Part shown: one piece after another, positions 42,407 through 51,249 of the stretch | Numbering within the stretch: the stretch's first letter is position 1 | Layout: every line of letters begins with the position of its first letter | Source of the DNA: Sulfobacillus thermosulfidooxidans | Lineage (GTDB): Bacteria > Bacillota > Sulfobacillia > Sulfobacillales > Sulfobacillaceae | DNA length: 64,000 nt | Assembly: GCF_001280565.1 (NCBI RefSeq) | Contig: NZ_LGRO01000001.1 | Location: 1,798,001-1,862,000 of the forward strand | Direction: 5' to 3' | The notes under the pieces: model-generated | Told to the model about the DNA's origin: nothing | Databases searched by the model: none | What the model saw: the letters and a program-made list of their open reading frames with translations, nothing else | Made by a program: the position numbers and the translations under genes

Positions 42407-43036
42407 CTAGTCATATTCTTGATAGAGTCTTTTCAGGGACAAAGCCTGAGCATAATCGCTTGCGGTATCCAAATCAAAATTGGGATGGGGACGTGAAAGC
42501 ACAGGGGGTGCTGAGATGCTTAAGGTATCGGGGCGTTTATGCCAAACTTGACCGAGCCCGACGTCTCCCTGCAATTGAAAAATAACGGGGTCAAATTGGG
42601 CATCAAAAATCACGGGATGGCCGATATGATTATTGTAAAGAGGTCTTATTGCGTGAACATCTGCAGGACGCTTTGCAAACTGCTCCCATGTCCACAAAAT
42701 ATCATCTGACGTCACAAAAGGTTGATCAGCTAAAAGAATGAGAACAGGAACCATGCCTTTATGGTTTCGAATCCACGTTAATCCTCGTTGAATGGAAGTC
42801 GCAATCCCCTGGGATGCGTGAACATTCGTCACCCAGTCTCCGGCCAGGGGAAAAGAAGGATCAAATCCCAGAACCGCCAGAGTCTCACAGCCAGTTTGCT
42901 GCGCTTGACCAATCACGTGATCAAGCACTGTACCCTGTCCCCAAGGCAATAACGCTTTGGGCTGTCCCATTCTTGTACTGAACCCTGCGGCTAAAATCAG
43001 TGCGACGGCGTCATGAATGGACGTGCTTACGTCCAT
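42407..43036 (-). CDS. mocA: Molybdenum cofactor cytidylyltransferase, MocA-like
   Basis: 209 residues of the MobA-like NTP-transferase fold. The nucleotide-binding signature LILAAGFSTRMGQPKALLP (about residues 12-30) and the metal-binding LILLADQPF (about 98-106) are clear. MocA attaches CMP to molybdopterin to make the dinucleotide cofactor (MCD) that CO dehydrogenase needs. It overlaps the XdhC/CoxF-like gene by 26 bases and is the last gene of the cox cluster, which fits maturation of CoxL. MobA (GMP transfer) is excluded by context rather than by a decisive residue. Confidence 0.8.
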   Translation of the reverse strand: MDVSTSIHDAVALILAAGFSTRMGQPKALLPWGQGTVLDHVIGQAQQTGCETLAVLGFDPSFPLAGDWVTNVHASQGIATSIQRGLTWIRNHKGMVPVLILLADQPFVTSDDILWTWEQFAKRPADVHAIRPLYNNHIGHPVIFDAQFDPVIFQLQGDVGLGQVWHKRPDTLSISAPPVLSRPHPNFDLDTASDYAQALSLKRLYQEYD

Positions 43037-44033
43037 GTAGCGTTCCTCCTTTGGTGCCTTTCCGACAAGCCATTAACTCTCCCACGATACTGACCGCCAC
43101 TTCTTCGGGCGTCTCGCCCCCGACGTCTAGTCCTACTGGTGCGTGTAAGGGCAGTTGTTGAGAGGAGAGTCCAACGTTTGTCAACATCTCCAACGTCCTT
43201 TCCAACGGTCCCAACACTCCGATAAATTGAGGATGGGAAGCCGCTGCAAGAGCCACCGCCTCTTCATCACGGCGCTGATGATGATTCATAATAACCCAAT
43301 AAGCCCCCATCAAGGTAGCCGGTTTAATTTGTGCAATCGGGGTGAGACAATGTGTGGTATGCGGAAAATGATGATCGTTATTGATATGAGGCCGAGAATC
43401 CATAATCATCACAGAAAATCCGACCTGATGGGCCAAACGCGCAACAGGCTCGGCATCATGTCCCGCACCGGCAATAATCAGCTGAGCAGGCGGCTTCATG
43501 ATATCCCACCAAAATCCGTTGAAAAACCCCGAGTCCCTCTTGTTCTCTGATGATGCTAAGAATGCCGCAGCCCACGAAGGAACTTCTCCGCACTCTGTAG
43601 CGTGAGAGAAAAGGAATCGGCGTCCGATAGGCAGTTCAGCTCCCCAAATAACGGGTTCTTCACCGTGCAGACATTCATTAAATGCGGTCCAAAAGGGGTC
43701 AGATGAACTAATCGGTTCCAGCCATACATCGACACTACCTTTGCATCCAATACCTAGTCCCCACATATCATCTTCGGTCAAATCATAATGCTGCAGGCAC
43801 GGTTCATGCGTTTTCATGACACGTTGGGCGTGAAGAAATAAATCGCCTTCAAGACATCCCCCACTCAAGGTCCCTTGCATTCGGCCATCCTCTCGCATCA
43901 CCATTTTCGCGCCGGGACGGCGATATGCAGATCCGTTCACCGTTACCAAGGTAGCTAAGACCACTTCGTGCCCCGATAATTCTGCATCTTTAACCAGCTG
44001 CCACAAATTCCGCGCCTCTTTAATCGACGACAA
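43011..44033 (-). CDS. coxF: XdhC/CoxF-family maturation protein
   Basis: 340 residues. The N-terminal XdhC_CoxI domain shows LATLVTVNGSAYRRPGAKMVM and a GTLSGGCLEGDL loop (about residues 50-65); the C-terminal Rossmann part has QLIIAGAGHDAEPVARLA (about 188-205) and GLDVGGETPEEVAVSIVGE. Members hold the sulfurated molybdenum cofactor and insert it into xanthine- or CO-dehydrogenases. It lies between coxE and the MocA-like gene. A second XdhC-type gene occurs at 46477. The symbol coxF is given by position and should be read as family-level. Confidence 0.8.
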   Translation of the reverse strand: MSSIKEARNLWQLVKDAELSGHEVVLATLVTVNGSAYRRPGAKMVMREDGRMQGTLSGGCLEGDLFLHAQRVMKTHEPCLQHYDLTEDDMWGLGIGCKGSVDVWLEPISSSDPFWTAFNECLHGEEPVIWGAELPIGRRFLFSHATECGEVPSWAAAFLASSENKRDSGFFNGFWWDIMKPPAQLIIAGAGHDAEPVARLAHQVGFSVMIMDSRPHINNDHHFPHTTHCLTPIAQIKPATLMGAYWVIMNHHQRRDEEAVALAAASHPQFIGVLGPLERTLEMLTNVGLSSQQLPLHAPVGLDVGGETPEEVAVSIVGELMACRKGTKGGTLHGRKHVHS

Positions 44034-44051: not shown

Positions 44052-45161
44052 TCATTGCAAACACGTACGCACATAATGAATCCACGAGAGGCTGTCGGAT
44101 ACCCCAACATGTTCCGGATTGTAAGCCAAAATAACTTTTAAAGCAGCCGATTGCGGAGTATAATCTGGCAATAATAATAATGGATTCAACCATACCACAC
44201 GCTGAGCAAGGCGAACCAGAACAGGAAACGATTGGGATAGCAACCACAAATCTCCTGTGTCAAAACCATCTGAGGCAATAAGAAAGGTTGTTTGCCTCGT
44301 AAACAACTGAGCATACTCATGCAATAGCCACGAGAAAGCCCATCCTAACCGAGTTCCTCCTCCCATTTGTTGCGCATCAGCTACGGGCGGGCTGCCTGGT
44401 CCACTACGGCGTAAAAACGGCGTCACTCGCTTGACTTGATTGCTCGACAAAATACATTCCACTCGATTGGTCTCATGCATCAATTGCCATGCCAAACCCA
44501 AATAGAATGGCACATAGGTCTGCATCGAACCGGAAACGTCTACTAACACGACGATCCGTGCGTGTTCTTGATGACGAGGGTGCCAAAGCCACTGTACGGG
44601 GTCTCCGCCATGGCGGAAAGCAGCTTGGACCGTACTGCGCCAATTCAGGCTACGGCCGCATGAACTTTTTCCTCGCCATGGCCCGGTATTCGCTGCCCAA
44701 TGCCGGGCCATATAGCGCGTCCAGCGTTTCATTTCATGATAGGGAACATCCTGGCCTGGAGCCAATGTGCAGGGACTTCCCCACATGGGACTATAGGCAA
44801 AAAGAGCCGGAGAGGGATTTTTTGATTGCGCTTGCATCCGCGTTTGACCAGGTGTTGAGAACATCCCATCAGTGCTATCTTGGATACGTTCTGGAACCAT
44901 CAACCGAGGCCTTTCGGGATAAAAGAAACGTAGAAACAAGTTCGGAAATATTTCCCATTGGTCGGCCGTCTTGGCATACACGGGGCGCCACATCCTCAGA
45001 AGATTTTCAGCATGCTCTACAGGTGAGTCAGCAAGTAATTGAAGAGCCTCCTGCGTCTCGCTGACTGCAGGACGAAATCCATGGTGCCGCAGAAAATGCG
45101 AAAACTCAGTTACTTGCATTTCCAGACGCCGAGAAAACTGATCAACCGTTAGTCCACCCAT
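44052..45161 (-). CDS. coxE: CoxE, VWA-domain protein
   Basis: About 369 residues; start taken at 45161, inside the end of coxD (a longer frame to 45197 exists). The C-terminal half is a von Willebrand A domain with the metal-site motif DVSGSMQTYVPFYLG (about residue 210) and ASDGFDTGDLWLL. CoxE pairs with the AAA+ protein CoxD, and the two are thought to build the copper-sulfur part of the CO dehydrogenase active site. The gene order coxD-coxE is conserved across form I clusters. Confidence 0.82.
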   Translation of the reverse strand: MGGLTVDQFSRRLEMQVTEFSHFLRHHGFRPAVSETQEALQLLADSPVEHAENLLRMWRPVYAKTADQWEIFPNLFLRFFYPERPRLMVPERIQDSTDGMFSTPGQTRMQAQSKNPSPALFAYSPMWGSPCTLAPGQDVPYHEMKRWTRYMARHWAANTGPWRGKSSCGRSLNWRSTVQAAFRHGGDPVQWLWHPRHQEHARIVVLVDVSGSMQTYVPFYLGLAWQLMHETNRVECILSSNQVKRVTPFLRRSGPGSPPVADAQQMGGGTRLGWAFSWLLHEYAQLFTRQTTFLIASDGFDTGDLWLLSQSFPVLVRLAQRVVWLNPLLLLPDYTPQSAALKVILAYNPEHVGVSDSLSWIHYVRTCLQ

Positions 45162-46006
45162 AATGCACGAATCCCCCGTTTTTCTATTACAGCCCAATCA
45201 TCTTGGGTCTTTAGAACACTCGACAAAGTCCACCGCACCGTTGTCTCCGAATAACCGTCCTCATCAAATTCCGCCAACATCCGAGCCCAGTCAATCGATT
45301 CCGCCAGACCCGGGGGTTTAAGCAAATTCCATCCTCGTAAAGTTTTTACCGCTGCCACTACACGCTTGGCTATATCTAAGGGCAAGTGTGGCACATGCTG
45401 ATGTATAATCGCCAATTCGCGGTCTGGTGTCGGGTAATCTAACCATAGATAAAGGCAACGCCGTCTTAACGCATCAGACAAATCTCGAGTACGATTAGAC
45501 GTCAACACAACCCAAGGAGGTTCCTGTGCAGCAATAGTTCCAATTTCAGGAATAGTTATTTGAAACTCACCCAAGATTTCCAGTAAGAGCGCTTCAAACT
45601 CTTCATCGGCCCGTTCCACTTCATCAATAAGCAGGACAGGCGACGGGCGAAGACGAATAGCTTTGAGCAGTGGCCGTTCCAATAAATATTCCCAGCGATA
45701 AAAATCGTCGACGACGTTTCCTGTTTCAGTACTATGTGCTGCTAACAGTTGCTTAGCATAATTCCAATCGTACAGTGCTTGGGACGCATCCAGTCCTTGG
45801 TAGCATTGAAGACGTACCAAAGGCTTGTTAAGGCATTGGGCAAGCGCTTTCGCCAGAAAGGTTTTTCCTACTCCCGCTGGTCCCTCCACGAGTAGAGGAC
45901 GGCGTAAACGATCTACGGCATAACACACCGCGGACAGCATCTCATCCGCAATATATCCCGCTTGATTCAATTGTTGAATCCAGAGCTCGCACCCATTCAC
46001 CCGCAT
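45149..46006 (-). CDS. coxD: CoxD, MoxR-type AAA+ ATPase
   Basis: 285 residues. Walker A GPAGVGKTFLAKALA (about residues 41-55), Walker B VLLIDEVERADEEFEALLLE, sensor-1 VVLTSNRTRDLSDALRRRC. MoxR-family chaperone of the CO dehydrogenase cluster; in Oligotropha CoxD is needed to introduce sulfur and copper at the Mo-Cu site. It starts directly after AAGGAGA. Its stop lies inside coxE. CoxG precedes it by 13 bases. Confidence 0.87.
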   Translation of the reverse strand: MRVNGCELWIQQLNQAGYIADEMLSAVCYAVDRLRRPLLVEGPAGVGKTFLAKALAQCLNKPLVRLQCYQGLDASQALYDWNYAKQLLAAHSTETGNVVDDFYRWEYLLERPLLKAIRLRPSPVLLIDEVERADEEFEALLLEILGEFQITIPEIGTIAAQEPPWVVLTSNRTRDLSDALRRRCLYLWLDYPTPDRELAIIHQHVPHLPLDIAKRVVAAVKTLRGWNLLKPPGLAESIDWARMLAEFDEDGYSETTVRWTLSSVLKTQDDWAVIEKRGIRALWVD

Positions 46007-46019
46007 TCTCCTTATCCGG

Positions 46020-46472
46020 CTATTCGGCTAACTGAGCCGCAATCCCTTGCCGAATATTTTCAAAAACTTGTTCCGTAATCTTTTTAACTTGATTATCTAA
46101 CAGCCGCCCGCCTAGGGTCGCCAAGGGCCCACTCACACTGACTTCCGCGACCCAGTTGAGCGATACGTGGTCCTGCTCTTGCGCAATATGCATCGTGCTC
46201 AGGAGATGAAAACCACTGCCCATACCTCCCCCTTGGGCATCTAAGCAAGCCTTATAGGGTTCAGGCAATAATTCAATTTTGGCATTCATATCAAAAACCG
46301 CGCGAATAGGGCCCACACCGACCCGCACTTTCGCGTGCAAATGACGTTCATCCAATACCTCATATTCGATAACGTCCGGCATGCAACGGCCTATCGCATC
46401 AGGGTCTTGGACAAAATCCCACACTACATTCCGGGGAGCATCCATCACGACAACACCTTGATAAGTTTTCAT
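46020..46472 (-). CDS. coxG: CoxG, SRPBCC-fold membrane-recruitment protein
   Basis: About 150 residues. YQGVVVMDAPRNVVWDFVQ and the run up to RCMPDV (about residue 32) match the CoxG/polyketide-cyclase-like family. CoxG is thought to bind quinone or recruit CO dehydrogenase to the membrane so electrons reach the respiratory chain. The ATG at 46472 is behind AAGGAGG; a frame start at 46499 is less likely. The last 15 residues form an amphipathic helix. Confidence 0.85.
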   Translation of the reverse strand: MKTYQGVVVMDAPRNVVWDFVQDPDAIGRCMPDVIEYEVLDERHLHAKVRVGVGPIRAVFDMNAKIELLPEPYKACLDAQGGGMGSGFHLLSTMHIAQEQDHVSLNWVAEVSVSGPLATLGGRLLDNQVKKITEQVFENIRQGIAAQLAE

Positions 46473-46476
46473 CGAT

Positions 46477-47448
46477 TCATGCCTCCTTACTTCGAACATA
46501 ACGTTCTGGATCTTCTAAAAATGCGTCTCGACACGATGAAGCACAAAATCCCCAGGTTTGATCGGCATATACTGCTTGATAGGGCGTCTCGGAAAGATTT
46601 ACCGTCATATGACAGACGGGATCGATTACCACAGTCTTAGTTAGAAGAGATGAGACCTCTACGGAGGTGGGCTTAGTCTGCCGCCGAATCTGAATAATTT
46701 CTGCCACAATACTTACGGCGATTTCTTCGGGAAGTCGCGAATGCACATCTAAGCCGGCCGGGATTGAGAGAATGCAGGCATTGTCAAACTTTCGTCCTTG
46801 CGAGAACCGCTCTCGCAACAATGCTCCGCGCCGATGTGAAGCCACGACGCCCAAGTAGGAAAGCGGAGCATCTTGTAGCGCGTCGATTGCCCAATCGTCA
46901 TATTGTCCCATGGTAGCCAAGACAGCGAAACCGCCATCTTGGCTCAATTGACGAATCTGTTGTTTGAAAGTTTCCCAGTTGGCATCGGGTGTCATGGCGG
47001 CACCTTGCACCCGAAAATTCAAATGAGACGCAATTTGCAGTACATACCGCGCCACTGGTGAATCACCGATGACTAAGAGCAAGGGACTAGCAAGATGCGG
47101 CTCCACAAATAGTTCCACCGTTCCCCCCGAGTGACACGTCATCGGTTTAATCAAGACGCCCCTGTCTTCAACATTTTTCTGGCGAATCCACTCATCATCG
47201 TCTTCCGGATGCGGGGATAACAACAACAACCGCGGTTGTCCATCAGTCAAAGCGCCTTCGGCGACTTCTAGTAAAATCCGACGCGTGCATTCACCGCCCA
47301 CATATCCTGTCAACTGGTGATCTTGGCTAACAATTGCATGTGCTCCGAGGATGGCTGAAGTCGGGGGCCGTGTTCGTACCACAGTTACTAAGACATAGGG
47401 TTCCCCCGCTAAATCGCGTCGCGCTGCCTCTTGCAAGACCGGATCCAT
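46477..47448 (-). CDS. XdhC-family protein fused to a YHS domain
   Basis: 323 residues. The first 270 are an XdhC/CoxI-type protein: a GYVGGECTRRILLEV loop (about 50-64), a Rossmann-like LLLVIGDSPVARYVLQIA segment, and IPAGLDVHSRLPEEIAVSI. The last 50 form a YHS domain, DPVCHMTV ... WGFCASSCRDAF ... DPERYV, which has Cys residues that bind metals such as copper. The ATG at 47448 follows AAGGAGG. It sits between coxL and coxG, where clusters known to me usually have coxD. The fusion suggests a role in delivering cofactor and perhaps copper to the Mo-Cu site. That role is inference. Confidence 0.82.
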   Translation of the reverse strand: MDPVLQEAARRDLAGEPYVLVTVVRTRPPTSAILGAHAIVSQDHQLTGYVGGECTRRILLEVAEGALTDGQPRLLLLSPHPEDDDEWIRQKNVEDRGVLIKPMTCHSGGTVELFVEPHLASPLLLVIGDSPVARYVLQIASHLNFRVQGAAMTPDANWETFKQQIRQLSQDGGFAVLATMGQYDDWAIDALQDAPLSYLGVVASHRRGALLRERFSQGRKFDNACILSIPAGLDVHSRLPEEIAVSIVAEIIQIRRQTKPTSVEVSSLLTKTVVIDPVCHMTVNLSETPYQAVYADQTWGFCASSCRDAFLEDPERYVRSKEA

Positions 47449-47467: not shown

Positions 47468-49822
47468 CTAGGATACTGTTAGCCCATGTTGTTTCAATAC
47501 TTCCCAGATTTTCCACGGGAACAAGGGAATCTCAAGATTGGTGACACCATACGGAGCCAAGGCGTCGACTACTGCGTTAACAAATGCAGCAGGAGATCCA
47601 ACATTGGGAGATTCACCTACGCCTTTGGCCCCTATAGGATGGTGTGGTGAGGGAGTGACGGTACGACCCGTTTCCCAGTGCGGAGTTTCTACAGCGGTTG
47701 GCACCAAGTAATCCATGAAATTAGGGGCTAGATTGTTACCATCAGAATCAAAGGCAATTTCTTGCATGAAGGCAATGCCAAAGCCTTCAGTAAGTCCTCC
47801 ATGGATTTGTCCTTCGACCACCATCGGATTGATGACTGTTCCACAATCATCTACTGCAACAAACCGTTCCACATGCACTTGTCCCGTCCCCCGATCAATT
47901 GAGACAACAGCAATATAAGCACCATTGGGGAATGTCAGATTCGGCGGATCATAATAATAGGTTGCTTCCAACCCCGGTTCCATGCCTTCGGGCAAATTGG
48001 TATAGGCTGCCAAGGCCACATCTGCCATGGTCACACTGCGAGAACTTAATCCTTTTGCGGAAAATCGTGTCCCGTCCCATTGCACATCATCCTGGGATAC
48101 CTCGAGCAAATGAGCGGCAATTTGTTCGGCCTTCTTTCGGACGCGCCTGGCTGCCAGTGCCGCGGCTCCCCCTGCGGTTGGCGTACTACGACTAGCATAG
48201 GTTCCTAATCCGTAAGGTGCAGTATCGGTGTCACCTTCTTCAATGAGTACATCTGCCGCCGATAGTCCTAGTTCTTGCGCAATGAGTTGGGCAAACGTGG
48301 TTTCATGTCCTTGTCCTTGATGACGCGCGCCGAGTCGGGCAATGACTTTGCCTGTAGGATGGATCCGAATTTCACAGCTATCGAACATTTTGATGCCAAG
48401 AATATCAAAAGTATGGCTAGGACCTGCTCCAACAATTTCGGTAAACGTCGATATCCCAATGCCGACTAATTCGCCTTGTTCGCGCCGTTTTTCTTGCTCC
48501 CTTCGCATCTGAGAATAATCAATGATAGCAAGAGCGGTATCTAAGGTTTTAGCATAGTTTCCGCTGTCATAAACCCAACCCAATGGAGATTGATAAGGAA
48601 ACTCTTCAGGCGCAATAAAATTGCGCCGCCGCAATTCGACGGGATCGAGGCTGAGTCGGTAAGCCAGAGTATTCATCACCCGTTCAATCAAGAACGATGC
48701 TTCTGTCACTCGAAACGAACAACGATAAGCCACACCTCCTGGCGCTTTATTCGTATAAACCCCATCAACTTCGGCGAAGGCAACAGGAAAACGGTAGGAT
48801 CCGGTAACAATGGAAAATAATCCTGCAGGAAACTTGGAAGGGTCAGCAGCGGCATCAAAGGCTCCATGATCGGCAATGGTCGTGACCTTTAAAACCGTCA
48901 CATGACCATCTTCTGTGGCTCCGATCTCTGCTGTCATATGATAATCACGGGCAAAATTGGTAGTGGTAAGATTTTCTGTCCGCGTTTCTATCCATTTGAT
49001 GGGCTGCCCTAATTTTATCGACATAACCACAGCACAGACATAACCGGGATATACGGGTACTTTATTACCAAATCCTCCACCAATGTCGGGTGACACAACA
49101 TGAATCATATGCTCCGGAAGTCCAGACACCATAGCCAAGACAGTTCGATGCGCATGTGGTGCTTGTGAAGTAACATACCACGTGAGTTTGCCTGTAGAAT
49201 TCTGATAATCGGCGATACAACCGCATGGTTCCAGCGGAGCTGGATGGACTCTAGGCATCCGAATCTGTTCCTTCACTACCACCGGTGAGGAAGCCAATGC
49301 CGCATCCGTGTCTTCTTTGTTCCCCACTTCCCAATGAAAAATATGATTATTTGTCTGTTCGCGGTCTTCCCGGAGTATGGGAGCGTCACTACTTAAAGCA
49401 AAAAACGGATCCATAACCGGGGTGAGAGGCTCATACTCAACATCAACGCGGGACACGCCGTCTTCAGCTGCTTCCCTGGTTTCAGCCACAACGGCCGCAA
49501 CTTCTTGATACTGAAATAAGACCTTTCCGGTCGCTAAAACCATTTGCTGATCTCCAGCTAATGTCGGCATCCACGCCAAGTTCATCGCAGCTAAATCTTC
49601 CCCCGTGAGAACGGCCTTAACCCCTTTAACGGCATAAGCATCCTCAGTGCGAACAGATTTAATGCGGGCATGGGCATAAGGACTGCGAACCAGTGCCATA
49701 TAAAGCATATGCGGCAGAACAATATCGTCTAAATATCGCCCCTGCCCTCGAATAAACCGTGGATCTTCCTTGCGTTTTATAGCCTTACCTAAAGGTTGCG
49801 TTTCCGTAACATCCATACTCAT
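47468..49822 (-). CDS. coxL: Form I CO dehydrogenase, large subunit CoxL
   Basis: 784 residues. The form I active-site loop AYRCSFR is at 48710-48730, with the copper-binding Cys at residue 368. The cofactor-binding pieces are present, such as GGGFGNKVPVYPGYV (about residue 255) and ARHQGQGHETTFAQ, and the C-terminal Glu region GAKGVGESPNVGSPAAF. This enzyme oxidises CO with water to CO2, passing electrons to the small and medium subunits and then to quinone. The length is normal (about 800). The ATG overlaps coxS by four bases. The form II motif AYRGAGR is absent, so this is genuine aerobic CO oxidation, not a xanthine dehydrogenase paralogue. Confidence 0.95.
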   Translation of the reverse strand: MSMDVTETQPLGKAIKRKEDPRFIRGQGRYLDDIVLPHMLYMALVRSPYAHARIKSVRTEDAYAVKGVKAVLTGEDLAAMNLAWMPTLAGDQQMVLATGKVLFQYQEVAAVVAETREAAEDGVSRVDVEYEPLTPVMDPFFALSSDAPILREDREQTNNHIFHWEVGNKEDTDAALASSPVVVKEQIRMPRVHPAPLEPCGCIADYQNSTGKLTWYVTSQAPHAHRTVLAMVSGLPEHMIHVVSPDIGGGFGNKVPVYPGYVCAVVMSIKLGQPIKWIETRTENLTTTNFARDYHMTAEIGATEDGHVTVLKVTTIADHGAFDAAADPSKFPAGLFSIVTGSYRFPVAFAEVDGVYTNKAPGGVAYRCSFRVTEASFLIERVMNTLAYRLSLDPVELRRRNFIAPEEFPYQSPLGWVYDSGNYAKTLDTALAIIDYSQMRREQEKRREQGELVGIGISTFTEIVGAGPSHTFDILGIKMFDSCEIRIHPTGKVIARLGARHQGQGHETTFAQLIAQELGLSAADVLIEEGDTDTAPYGLGTYASRSTPTAGGAAALAARRVRKKAEQIAAHLLEVSQDDVQWDGTRFSAKGLSSRSVTMADVALAAYTNLPEGMEPGLEATYYYDPPNLTFPNGAYIAVVSIDRGTGQVHVERFVAVDDCGTVINPMVVEGQIHGGLTEGFGIAFMQEIAFDSDGNNLAPNFMDYLVPTAVETPHWETGRTVTPSPHHPIGAKGVGESPNVGSPAAFVNAVVDALAPYGVTNLEIPLFPWKIWEVLKQHGLTVS

Positions 49823-50328
49823 ACTTTTCTAGTCTCCTCTCCCATCCGGCGTTTGGCTTCTAGTACCGCTTTGACAATATTGACGTATCCAGTGCATCGG
49901 CAGAGATTCCCAGAAATCGCCCGACGTACCTCATGCTCGGTGAGATCTACAGAATTTCGTAGGAGGGCTGTGGTTGTCATTAGCATGCCCGGGGTACAAA
50001 ACCCGCATTGCAAGCCGTGATTGTCCCAAAACGCTTGTTGCAAGGGATGAAGTTGGCCATTGTGTCCCAGACCTTCTACCGTTTCAATATCATGACCGTC
50101 GGCTTGCACAGCCAAAACCGTACACGATTTAACTGGAACGCCATCTAAGAGTACAGTACAAACCCCACAACTTGTGGTATCACAACCCACATGAGTTCCC
50201 GTTAATCCAAGATTATCCCGAATGAAATAAGCTAGTAACGTTCGAGGTTCCGCCAAGGCATGGCGCGACTCCCCATTAATGGTGACGTGAACCATAATTT
50301 GATCATTTATAACCGTTCGACCCATCAT
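49819..50328 (-). CDS. coxS: CO dehydrogenase small subunit CoxS
   Basis: 169 residues, the usual size. Two [2Fe-2S] sites are visible: GCDTTSCGVC with a later Cys (CTV) for the plant-type ferredoxin cluster (about residues 49-70), and CGFCTPGM ... NLCRCTGY (about 112-152) for the second cluster. It passes electrons from the Mo-Cu centre towards FAD on CoxM. The start could be the second ATG (50325), since GGAGGTAAC precedes both. The gene is 33 bases after coxM and overlaps coxL by four. Confidence 0.95.
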   Translation of the reverse strand: MMGRTVINDQIMVHVTINGESRHALAEPRTLLAYFIRDNLGLTGTHVGCDTTSCGVCTVLLDGVPVKSCTVLAVQADGHDIETVEGLGHNGQLHPLQQAFWDNHGLQCGFCTPGMLMTTTALLRNSVDLTEHEVRRAISGNLCRCTGYVNIVKAVLEAKRRMGEETRKV

Positions 50329-50361: not shown

Positions 50362-51249
50362 TTAGGCAGACACATCCATCAGCCGTTGCCAGTCGTGATG
50401 TACGGCCGTTAGACCACGTTCTACAAAAACATTAACCATAGCCCGTTTGTACTCTTCACTGCCACGCCGATCCGTCACCGGATCAGATTCCTTGGCCGCC
50501 TCAGAGGCGACATGTCGAATGAGTTCGGGCGTTAAAGGATGACCCTGCAATAAGGATTCCGCCTTCACCGCAGCCAGGGGAGTCGCTCCCACGGCGGCTA
50601 ATCCAATACCAGCATCCAAAACAACCCCGTGGGGATCTAATACCAGTGTGACGGCAACCCCAACAACCGCAAAGTCCCCGACTTTTCGCTCAAGCTTCAA
50701 ATAACGCGCGCCCACAAATCCAGAATCGTAATGCAAGGGAATACGTATACCGGTGACCAATTCTTGCGGTTCAAGAACGGTCGTAAATGTATCCACAAAG
50801 AACTCGCGAAGAGGCACTTCCCGGGAACGATGTGCACTTTGGATGGATACCGATGCTTTGAGAGCCAATAATGCGGCCCCCCAATCAGCTGCGGGATCAG
50901 CGTGAGCTAGCGACCCCCCCATAGTTCCCCGATTTCTGACAAGAGGATCCGCAATATGCCTCGCCGTTTGGTGTAGTAAGGGAACGCGAGAATCTAGCAC
51001 ATACTCCCACTTGCGATGACGAACAAGGGCTCCGATATGAAGCAGGTGAGCCTGTTCCGTGACATTATCCCACGAGGAAATTCCATTGATGTCAATAAGA
51101 ATAGAAGGGGCTACCAAACGTAGCTTCATCATGGGTAACAAGCTTTGTCCCCCTGCTAGAATTTTAGTTTCATCTCCGTATTGCTCTAATAATCCGAATA
51201 TTTCTTCTACTGATCGGGGTGCATAATACTCAAAGGAATTAGGAAACAT
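50362..51249 (-). CDS. coxM: CO dehydrogenase medium subunit CoxM
   Basis: 295 residues of the FAD-binding PCMH family. KILAGGQSLLPMMKLR (about residues 30-45) and the NRGTMGGSLAHADPAADW segment (about 103-120) are the two FAD-binding motifs typical of CoxM. It receives electrons from CoxS and reduces quinone. It is the first gene of the cluster, with AAGGAGGATA before the ATG at 51249. The divergent two-component genes begin about 250 bases upstream. Confidence 0.94.
   Translation of the reverse strand: MFPNSFEYYAPRSVEEIFGLLEQYGDETKILAGGQSLLPMMKLRLVAPSILIDINGISSWDNVTEQAHLLHIGALVRHRKWEYVLDSRVPLLHQTARHIADPLVRNRGTMGGSLAHADPAADWGAALLALKASVSIQSAHRSREVPLREFFVDTFTTVLEPQELVTGIRIPLHYDSGFVGARYLKLERKVGDFAVVGVAVTLVLDPHGVVLDAGIGLAAVGATPLAAVKAESLLQGHPLTPELIRHVASEAAKESDPVTDRRGSEEYKRAMVNVFVERGLTAVHHDWQRLMDVSA

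Follow-up and report, generated by a model that had tools for sequence, protein, structure and literature searches.

Aerobic CO dehydrogenase is the enzyme of atmospheric CO removal. The published model of how copper is delivered to its Mo-S-Cu site is built on motif guesses from one species. Copper-insertion genetics for CoxF have been reported from Oligotropha carboxidovorans only. The coxE or coxF mutants of this species form a CO dehydrogenase that has Mo but only part of the sulfur, lacks Cu, and can be partly reactivated by Cu(I) (PMC4240915). The authors proposed CoxF as the copper supplier, with M107CPSHGTM as its suspected copper motif (PMC4240915). Since neither CoxE nor CoxF is present in either mutant (PMC4240915), the copper defect is not assignable to CoxF alone. 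The YHS domain is known from other enzymes. The YHS domain of the Mycobacterium phlei adenylyl cyclase responds specifically to copper, which activates the cyclase; a set of one Asp and three Cys was proposed by Linder for copper in YHS domains, and the YHS domain of toluene-4-hydroxylase was metal-free in the crystal (PMC4626032).

The window, the whole 64,000-nucleotide stretch of DNA analysed here, contains a cox operon on its minus strand, in the order coxM-coxS-coxL-[XdhC-YHS]-coxG-coxD-coxE-xdhC-mobA-like (Table 1). Form I CO dehydrogenase was defined by the AYxCSFR signature together with a TIGR02416 score above the cut-off; the CoxL of the window carries AYRCSFR and scores 1221 bits, above the cut-off of 991. 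The first-pass annotation had described an XdhC protein fused to a YHS domain inside a cox operon, and this description was confirmed. The fusion is one chain with three Pfam domains above their cut-offs: XdhC_CoxI at residues 14-75 (52 bits), XdhC_C at residues 124-251 (71 bits), and YHS (PF04945) at residues 274-319 (45.2 bits; cut-off 30.3). Its gene lies directly behind the form I coxL, with coxM, S, D, E and G in the same operon; a gap of 19 nt separates it from coxL, and a clear ribosome site precedes it. The likely ATG of coxG is found just past the CoxF stop, and the coxG ribosome site lies within the final CoxF codons.

Table 1. Positions of the cox genes and of the CoxF elements in the window
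Feature	Position	Strand	Remarks
CoxM, FAD subunit	50362..51249	-	
CoxS, [2Fe-2S] subunit	49819..50328	-	
CoxL, aerobic CO dehydrogenase large subunit, form I	47468..49822	-	AYRCSFR; TIGR02416
CoxF orthologue, 323 aa	46477..47448	-	XdhC_CoxI + XdhC Rossmann + YHS; ATG start
CoxF-specific loop C105-x-S107-x-G109	47122..47136	-	matches the position of M107CPSHGTM, the motif suspected to bind Cu in O. carboxidovorans CoxF
YHS domain, residues 274-323	46480..46629	-	predicted metal ligands D276/C279/C302/C306
CoxG	46020..46499	-	ORF; translation probably starts at the ATG near 46472
CoxD-type AAA ATPase	45149..46006	-	
CoxE-type VWA protein	44052..45197	-	
Second XdhC-family protein (CoxI/XdhC type)	43011..44033	-	without YHS
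MobA-like NTP transferase	42407..43036	-	possible molybdopterin cytidylyltransferase

The AlphaFold model of the full protein is confident (mean pLDDT 91) and has two parts, between which residues 264-270 form a single short, flexible linker. The core matched the folds of 2we8 and 3on5, which together with both XdhC Pfam domains places it in the XdhC/CoxI family. A quick tree with SH-aLRT branch support was reconstructed from 96 CoxF-like cores and five other XdhC proteins. The window protein grouped with the CoxF of plasmid pHCG3 from Afipia/Oligotropha carboxidovorans, apart from the sampled form II and xanthine-dehydrogenase-type XdhC proteins (support 99). The sequence evidence identifies the window protein as CoxF, the maturation factor of XdhC type that serves the Mo-Cu (form I) CO dehydrogenase specifically. 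The proposal of a new maturation factor was therefore only partly upheld: the protein is orthologous to CoxF, which had already been implicated in copper insertion (PMC4240915), and the new element is the YHS domain on it, for which no report was found. A chance fusion, a frameshift or a read-through was excluded, because proteins with this fusion and the same conserved residues were found in dozens of species and the model is confident.

The YHS domain contains the motifs DPVCHMTV (residues 276-283), FCASSC (301-306) and DPERY (313-317). P277, C279, M281, F301, C302 and C306 show no variation among 40 diverse fused proteins, and D276 shows almost none; in a 28-sequence alignment of the YHS domain, the D, P, C, M, V, F, C and C positions are invariant. 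The window protein thus has the Asp and three Cys of the proposed copper set, with D276, C279, C302 and C306 as the predicted ligands. The isolated YHS domain was modelled with a pLDDT of 90.7. In a fold search with this model, the Z scores were modest (up to 6.0); the YHS domains of toluene/phenol monooxygenases were nearest, and YacG and ribosomal L24e were also matched. The sequence search against the PDB gave weak matches only. L24e uses these Cys residues to bind metal. The CoxF of the Deinococcus sp. AJ005 plasmid (L036, 8986-10047) has a YHS domain without the Asp and the first Cys (SPVDGE...FTCANC), so its metal binding may be altered. The linker of the Natronorubrum bangense CoxF (L034) has an extra CCGGG run just ahead of the YHS domain, a possible further metal site. 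The only other YHS protein in the genome of the window is a stand-alone protein of about 55 aa (G000:C1:2281976-2282113; L001, 1492-1656, minus strand), and its gene adjoins that of a copper-translocating P-type ATPase (480 bits to TIGR01511, whose cut-off is 397).

The core of CoxF has a specific feature of its own, a C-x-S-x-G loop, whose correspondence to M107CPSHGTM of O. carboxidovorans was taken from the residue numbering. The loop is invariant in the YHS-bearing CoxF proteins with a residue there (75/75) and in the YHS-less ones (13/13). In 25 of 26 other XdhC proteins the form is two residues shorter at this loop, mostly C-G-G. MCPSHGTM was rejected as a general copper site, the Met being not conserved and only C-x-S-x-G being kept. 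The loop bears on whether the YHS domain handles copper at all. The domain might instead serve for docking or have a structural role, possibly with Zn or no metal bound, and fix CoxF on CoxL or CoxE, while copper would be handled by the XdhC core alone. The presence of the loop in CoxF with or without YHS and its absence from nearly all the other XdhC proteins compared would fit such a role, as would the nearest fold, that of the toluene/phenol monooxygenase domains with their reportedly metal-free toluene-4-hydroxylase member, and the YHS-less CoxF that is evidently enough in Alphaproteobacteria. However, the three Cys residues are invariant in 40 sequences and in nearly all sampled phyla, a constancy that docking by itself would not call for, and the L24e-like relatives bind metal through them. 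A docking role is therefore considered unlikely.

To map the distribution of the fusion, 84,980 species genomes were scanned by pattern (best 80 matches); together with five plasmid records, this gave at least 67 fused loci. Fused CoxF proteins were found in at least 13 bacterial phyla, in haloarchaea and in Thermoplasmata. The bacterial phyla include Chloroflexota, Thermomicrobiota, Actinomycetota, Acidobacteriota, Gemmatimonadota, Deinococcota, Verrucomicrobiota, Bacteroidota, Myxococcota, Rokuibacteriota, Vulcanimicrobiota, Bacillota, and Pseudomonadota. Among the matches listed, a form I coxL is in the locus at 57 of the 67 fused loci. At the 55 of these that were scored, coxL is on the same strand as the fused CoxF gene and within about 4 kb; the remaining two (L071 and L084) have the coxL signature AYACSFR. 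Ten fused loci have no form I coxL in the locus, and nine of these were examined genome-wide. Seven of the nine genomes contain a form I coxL above the cut-off on another contig; the other two are MAGs (L051 and L054), with below-cut-off form I coxL matches and short pieces only. The tenth locus (L064) is a 5.4-kb contig with coxD-coxE-coxF. Unusual CoxL signatures were also observed, namely AYRCSFM in Caballeronia SBC1 (L035, 3779-6223), ALRCSFR (L089, 1372-3726) and SYRCSFR (L067, 4637-7045). At two loci (L042, 4539-5444; L067, 11643-12506), a gene beside a mobA-like gene and not far from the YHS-bearing CoxF encodes a second, YHS-less CoxF-like protein, and a split of labour between the two is possible.

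A profile from 40 fused CoxF proteins was run on 246 actinobacterial genomes irrespective of gene neighbourhood, and form I CoxL was sought in the same genomes. The matches fell into two score classes with a wide gap between them, CoxF at 250 bits or more and other XdhC proteins at about 111 bits or less. Three in-between matches (185, 160 and 123 bits) were each inspected singly: they are a contig-cut CoxF (G424), a YHS-less XdhC by a different molybdoenzyme (G530), and a decayed remnant (G628). This last one (L142, 2642-3046; G628:C11) is an N-terminally broken CoxF-YHS that follows a choline-dehydrogenase-like gene; no cox gene occurs in the 8 kb read. All 39 form I actinobacterial genomes have CoxF. 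Leaving out the contig-cut genes in G556, G596 and G424, the YHS domain is present on 39 of the 40 intact CoxF proteins, the sole exception being a real loss in a mycobacterial genome (G557). Sporadic loss of the domain was rejected for these three contig-cut genes and for L089 (Gemmatimonadetes), which are all cut by contig ends. No YHS extension was found on a non-CoxF XdhC among the matches listed from the 246 genomes; the two score classes, with no lower match listed reaching the YHS domain, exclude a random spread of YHS over XdhC proteins. The fused gene lies 27-135 nt behind coxL on the same strand in 31/31 same-contig pairs. Three apparent orphans of XdhC-YHS (G531, G534 and G510) were rejected as such, since in each a fragment of a coxL-type gene immediately precedes the fused gene, where the contig ends; these fragments are 57-69% identical to the coxL of the window.

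A different picture was obtained for 329 Pseudomonadota, where CoxF is present in all 16 form I genomes and the YHS domain in only two of them (G653 and G980); a CoxF-like protein without form I was found in three further genomes (YHS in 0/3). The genome of the window provides a within-genome control, because it also contains a form II-like cluster (S-L-M-D-E-G-xdhC) and a xanthine-dehydrogenase-type cluster (G000:C1:3060761-3063046 in L147; G000:C1:2296591-2303642 in L148). The XdhC proteins of both clusters lack the YHS domain. Thus the expectation that the fusion would accompany form I cox clusters and be missing next to copper-free enzymes is very well borne out by the fused loci, by the actinobacterial CoxF proteins and by these controls.

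The same controls bear on whether the YHS Cys residues might carry persulfide sulfur to Mo, which would give the domain a role in sulfuration and not in copper supply. Since xanthine dehydrogenases and form II enzymes also need sulfuration, yet have XdhC proteins without YHS, this role is considered very unlikely, although XdhC proteins elsewhere protect and insert the sulfurated Moco (PMC4240915), and the C302/C306 pair and C279 could carry sulfane sulfur. Moreover, sulfuration is assigned to CoxD, and the enzyme of the coxE and coxF mutants is partly sulfurated but copper-free (PMC4240915).

Phylogenetic analysis showed that the YHS-less alphaproteobacterial CoxF proteins form one clade (support 96) nested inside YHS-bearing lineages. 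This nesting suggests that the clade, which holds the laboratory model O. carboxidovorans, lost the domain; the counts alone do not separate gain from loss. On the tree, the YHS label must change six times, and some of these changes depend on contig-cut rows. On sequence grounds, the YHS-bearing form appears to be the normal and commoner state of CoxF, and apparently it has not been reported. A more tentative reading, to which we give somewhat less than even odds, is that the YHS domain might be the original dedicated copper-loading arm of Mo-Cu CO dehydrogenase maturation in bacteria and archaea, and that the O. carboxidovorans lineage lost it. The copper step would then have been studied in an atypical organism.

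To our knowledge, no molybdenum hydroxylase other than the form I CO dehydrogenase contains copper. The YHS-bearing CoxF is tied near-exclusively to this enzyme, so a copper function is the most economical reading of the domain. We infer that YHS is the copper-holding arm of CoxF, and assign a probability of about 0.55 to this reading, which includes both copper binding and copper transfer. In the proposed mechanism, the XdhC core of CoxF would dock on the sulfurated, copper-free CoxL; the C-terminal YHS domain, on its short flexible linker, would hold one copper ion via D276, C279, C302 and C306; and this ion might be passed to the Mo-SH/Cys site, either by the YHS domain alone or through the C-x-S-x-G loop of the core. 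The copper response of the M. phlei YHS domain and the copper-ATPase neighbour of the other YHS protein in the genome of the window also speak for a copper arm. The probability is not higher because a YHS-less CoxF works and because the YHS domain of Deinococcus sp. AJ005 lacks the Asp and one Cys. The mycobacterial loss and the metal-free toluene-4-hydroxylase domain also count against a copper arm. Moreover, the alphaproteobacterial CoxF proteins, including the only genetically studied one, lack the domain, so it is not required for copper insertion as such. The domain could also be a copper sensor that gates CoxF, with maturation proceeding only when copper is present. The best-studied YHS domain with a metal effect is in fact a copper-switched, C-terminal regulatory domain of an enzyme (PMC4626032), but no regulatory partner was identified here and another copper carrier would still be required, which makes a sensor quite unlikely.

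What is known, therefore, is the factor CoxF; what is new is its unremarked YHS domain with a sharp distribution, which makes the copper question testable. In the full-text literature searched, outside which most subscription papers lie, no paper was found that joins the YHS domain with XdhC or carbon monoxide, and the CO dehydrogenase papers examined there do not mention YHS. The XdhC-YHS architecture may well be shown already in curated databases. Carried by the suspected copper donor, this conserved candidate for copper binding offers a small soluble target for tests of metal binding and transfer. Since the YHS domain separates CoxF from other XdhC proteins, it could, together with the CxSxG loop, mark the true Cu-dependent CO dehydrogenase clusters in genomes.

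In comparison with known systems, the XdhC proteins of xanthine dehydrogenase (2we7 and 3on5) share the core fold with the window protein, but they have C-G-G in place of CxSxG, no YHS domain and a copper-free client. The YHS domain of the M. phlei adenylyl cyclase is likewise C-terminal on an enzyme and has the Asp and three Cys, and the copper-specific effect is its own; however, it is fused to a cyclase and acts as a sensor, not as a metal donor (PMC4626032). The CoxF of O. carboxidovorans OM5 (pHCG3) has the same XdhC core with the CxSxG loop, is encoded in a form I operon and falls in the same clade, whereas it has 280 aa and no YHS domain, and its gene order is L-D-E-F-G, compared with L-F-G-D-E in the window. 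The CoxF-YHS proteins of Thermomicrobium roseum, Natronorubrum bangense, Meiothermus granaticius, Mycobacterium, Streptomyces, and Paraburkholderia, which where annotated carry only the label 'XdhC family protein', differ from the window protein in linker length and gene order, but have the same three domains and adjoin a form I coxL as in the window.
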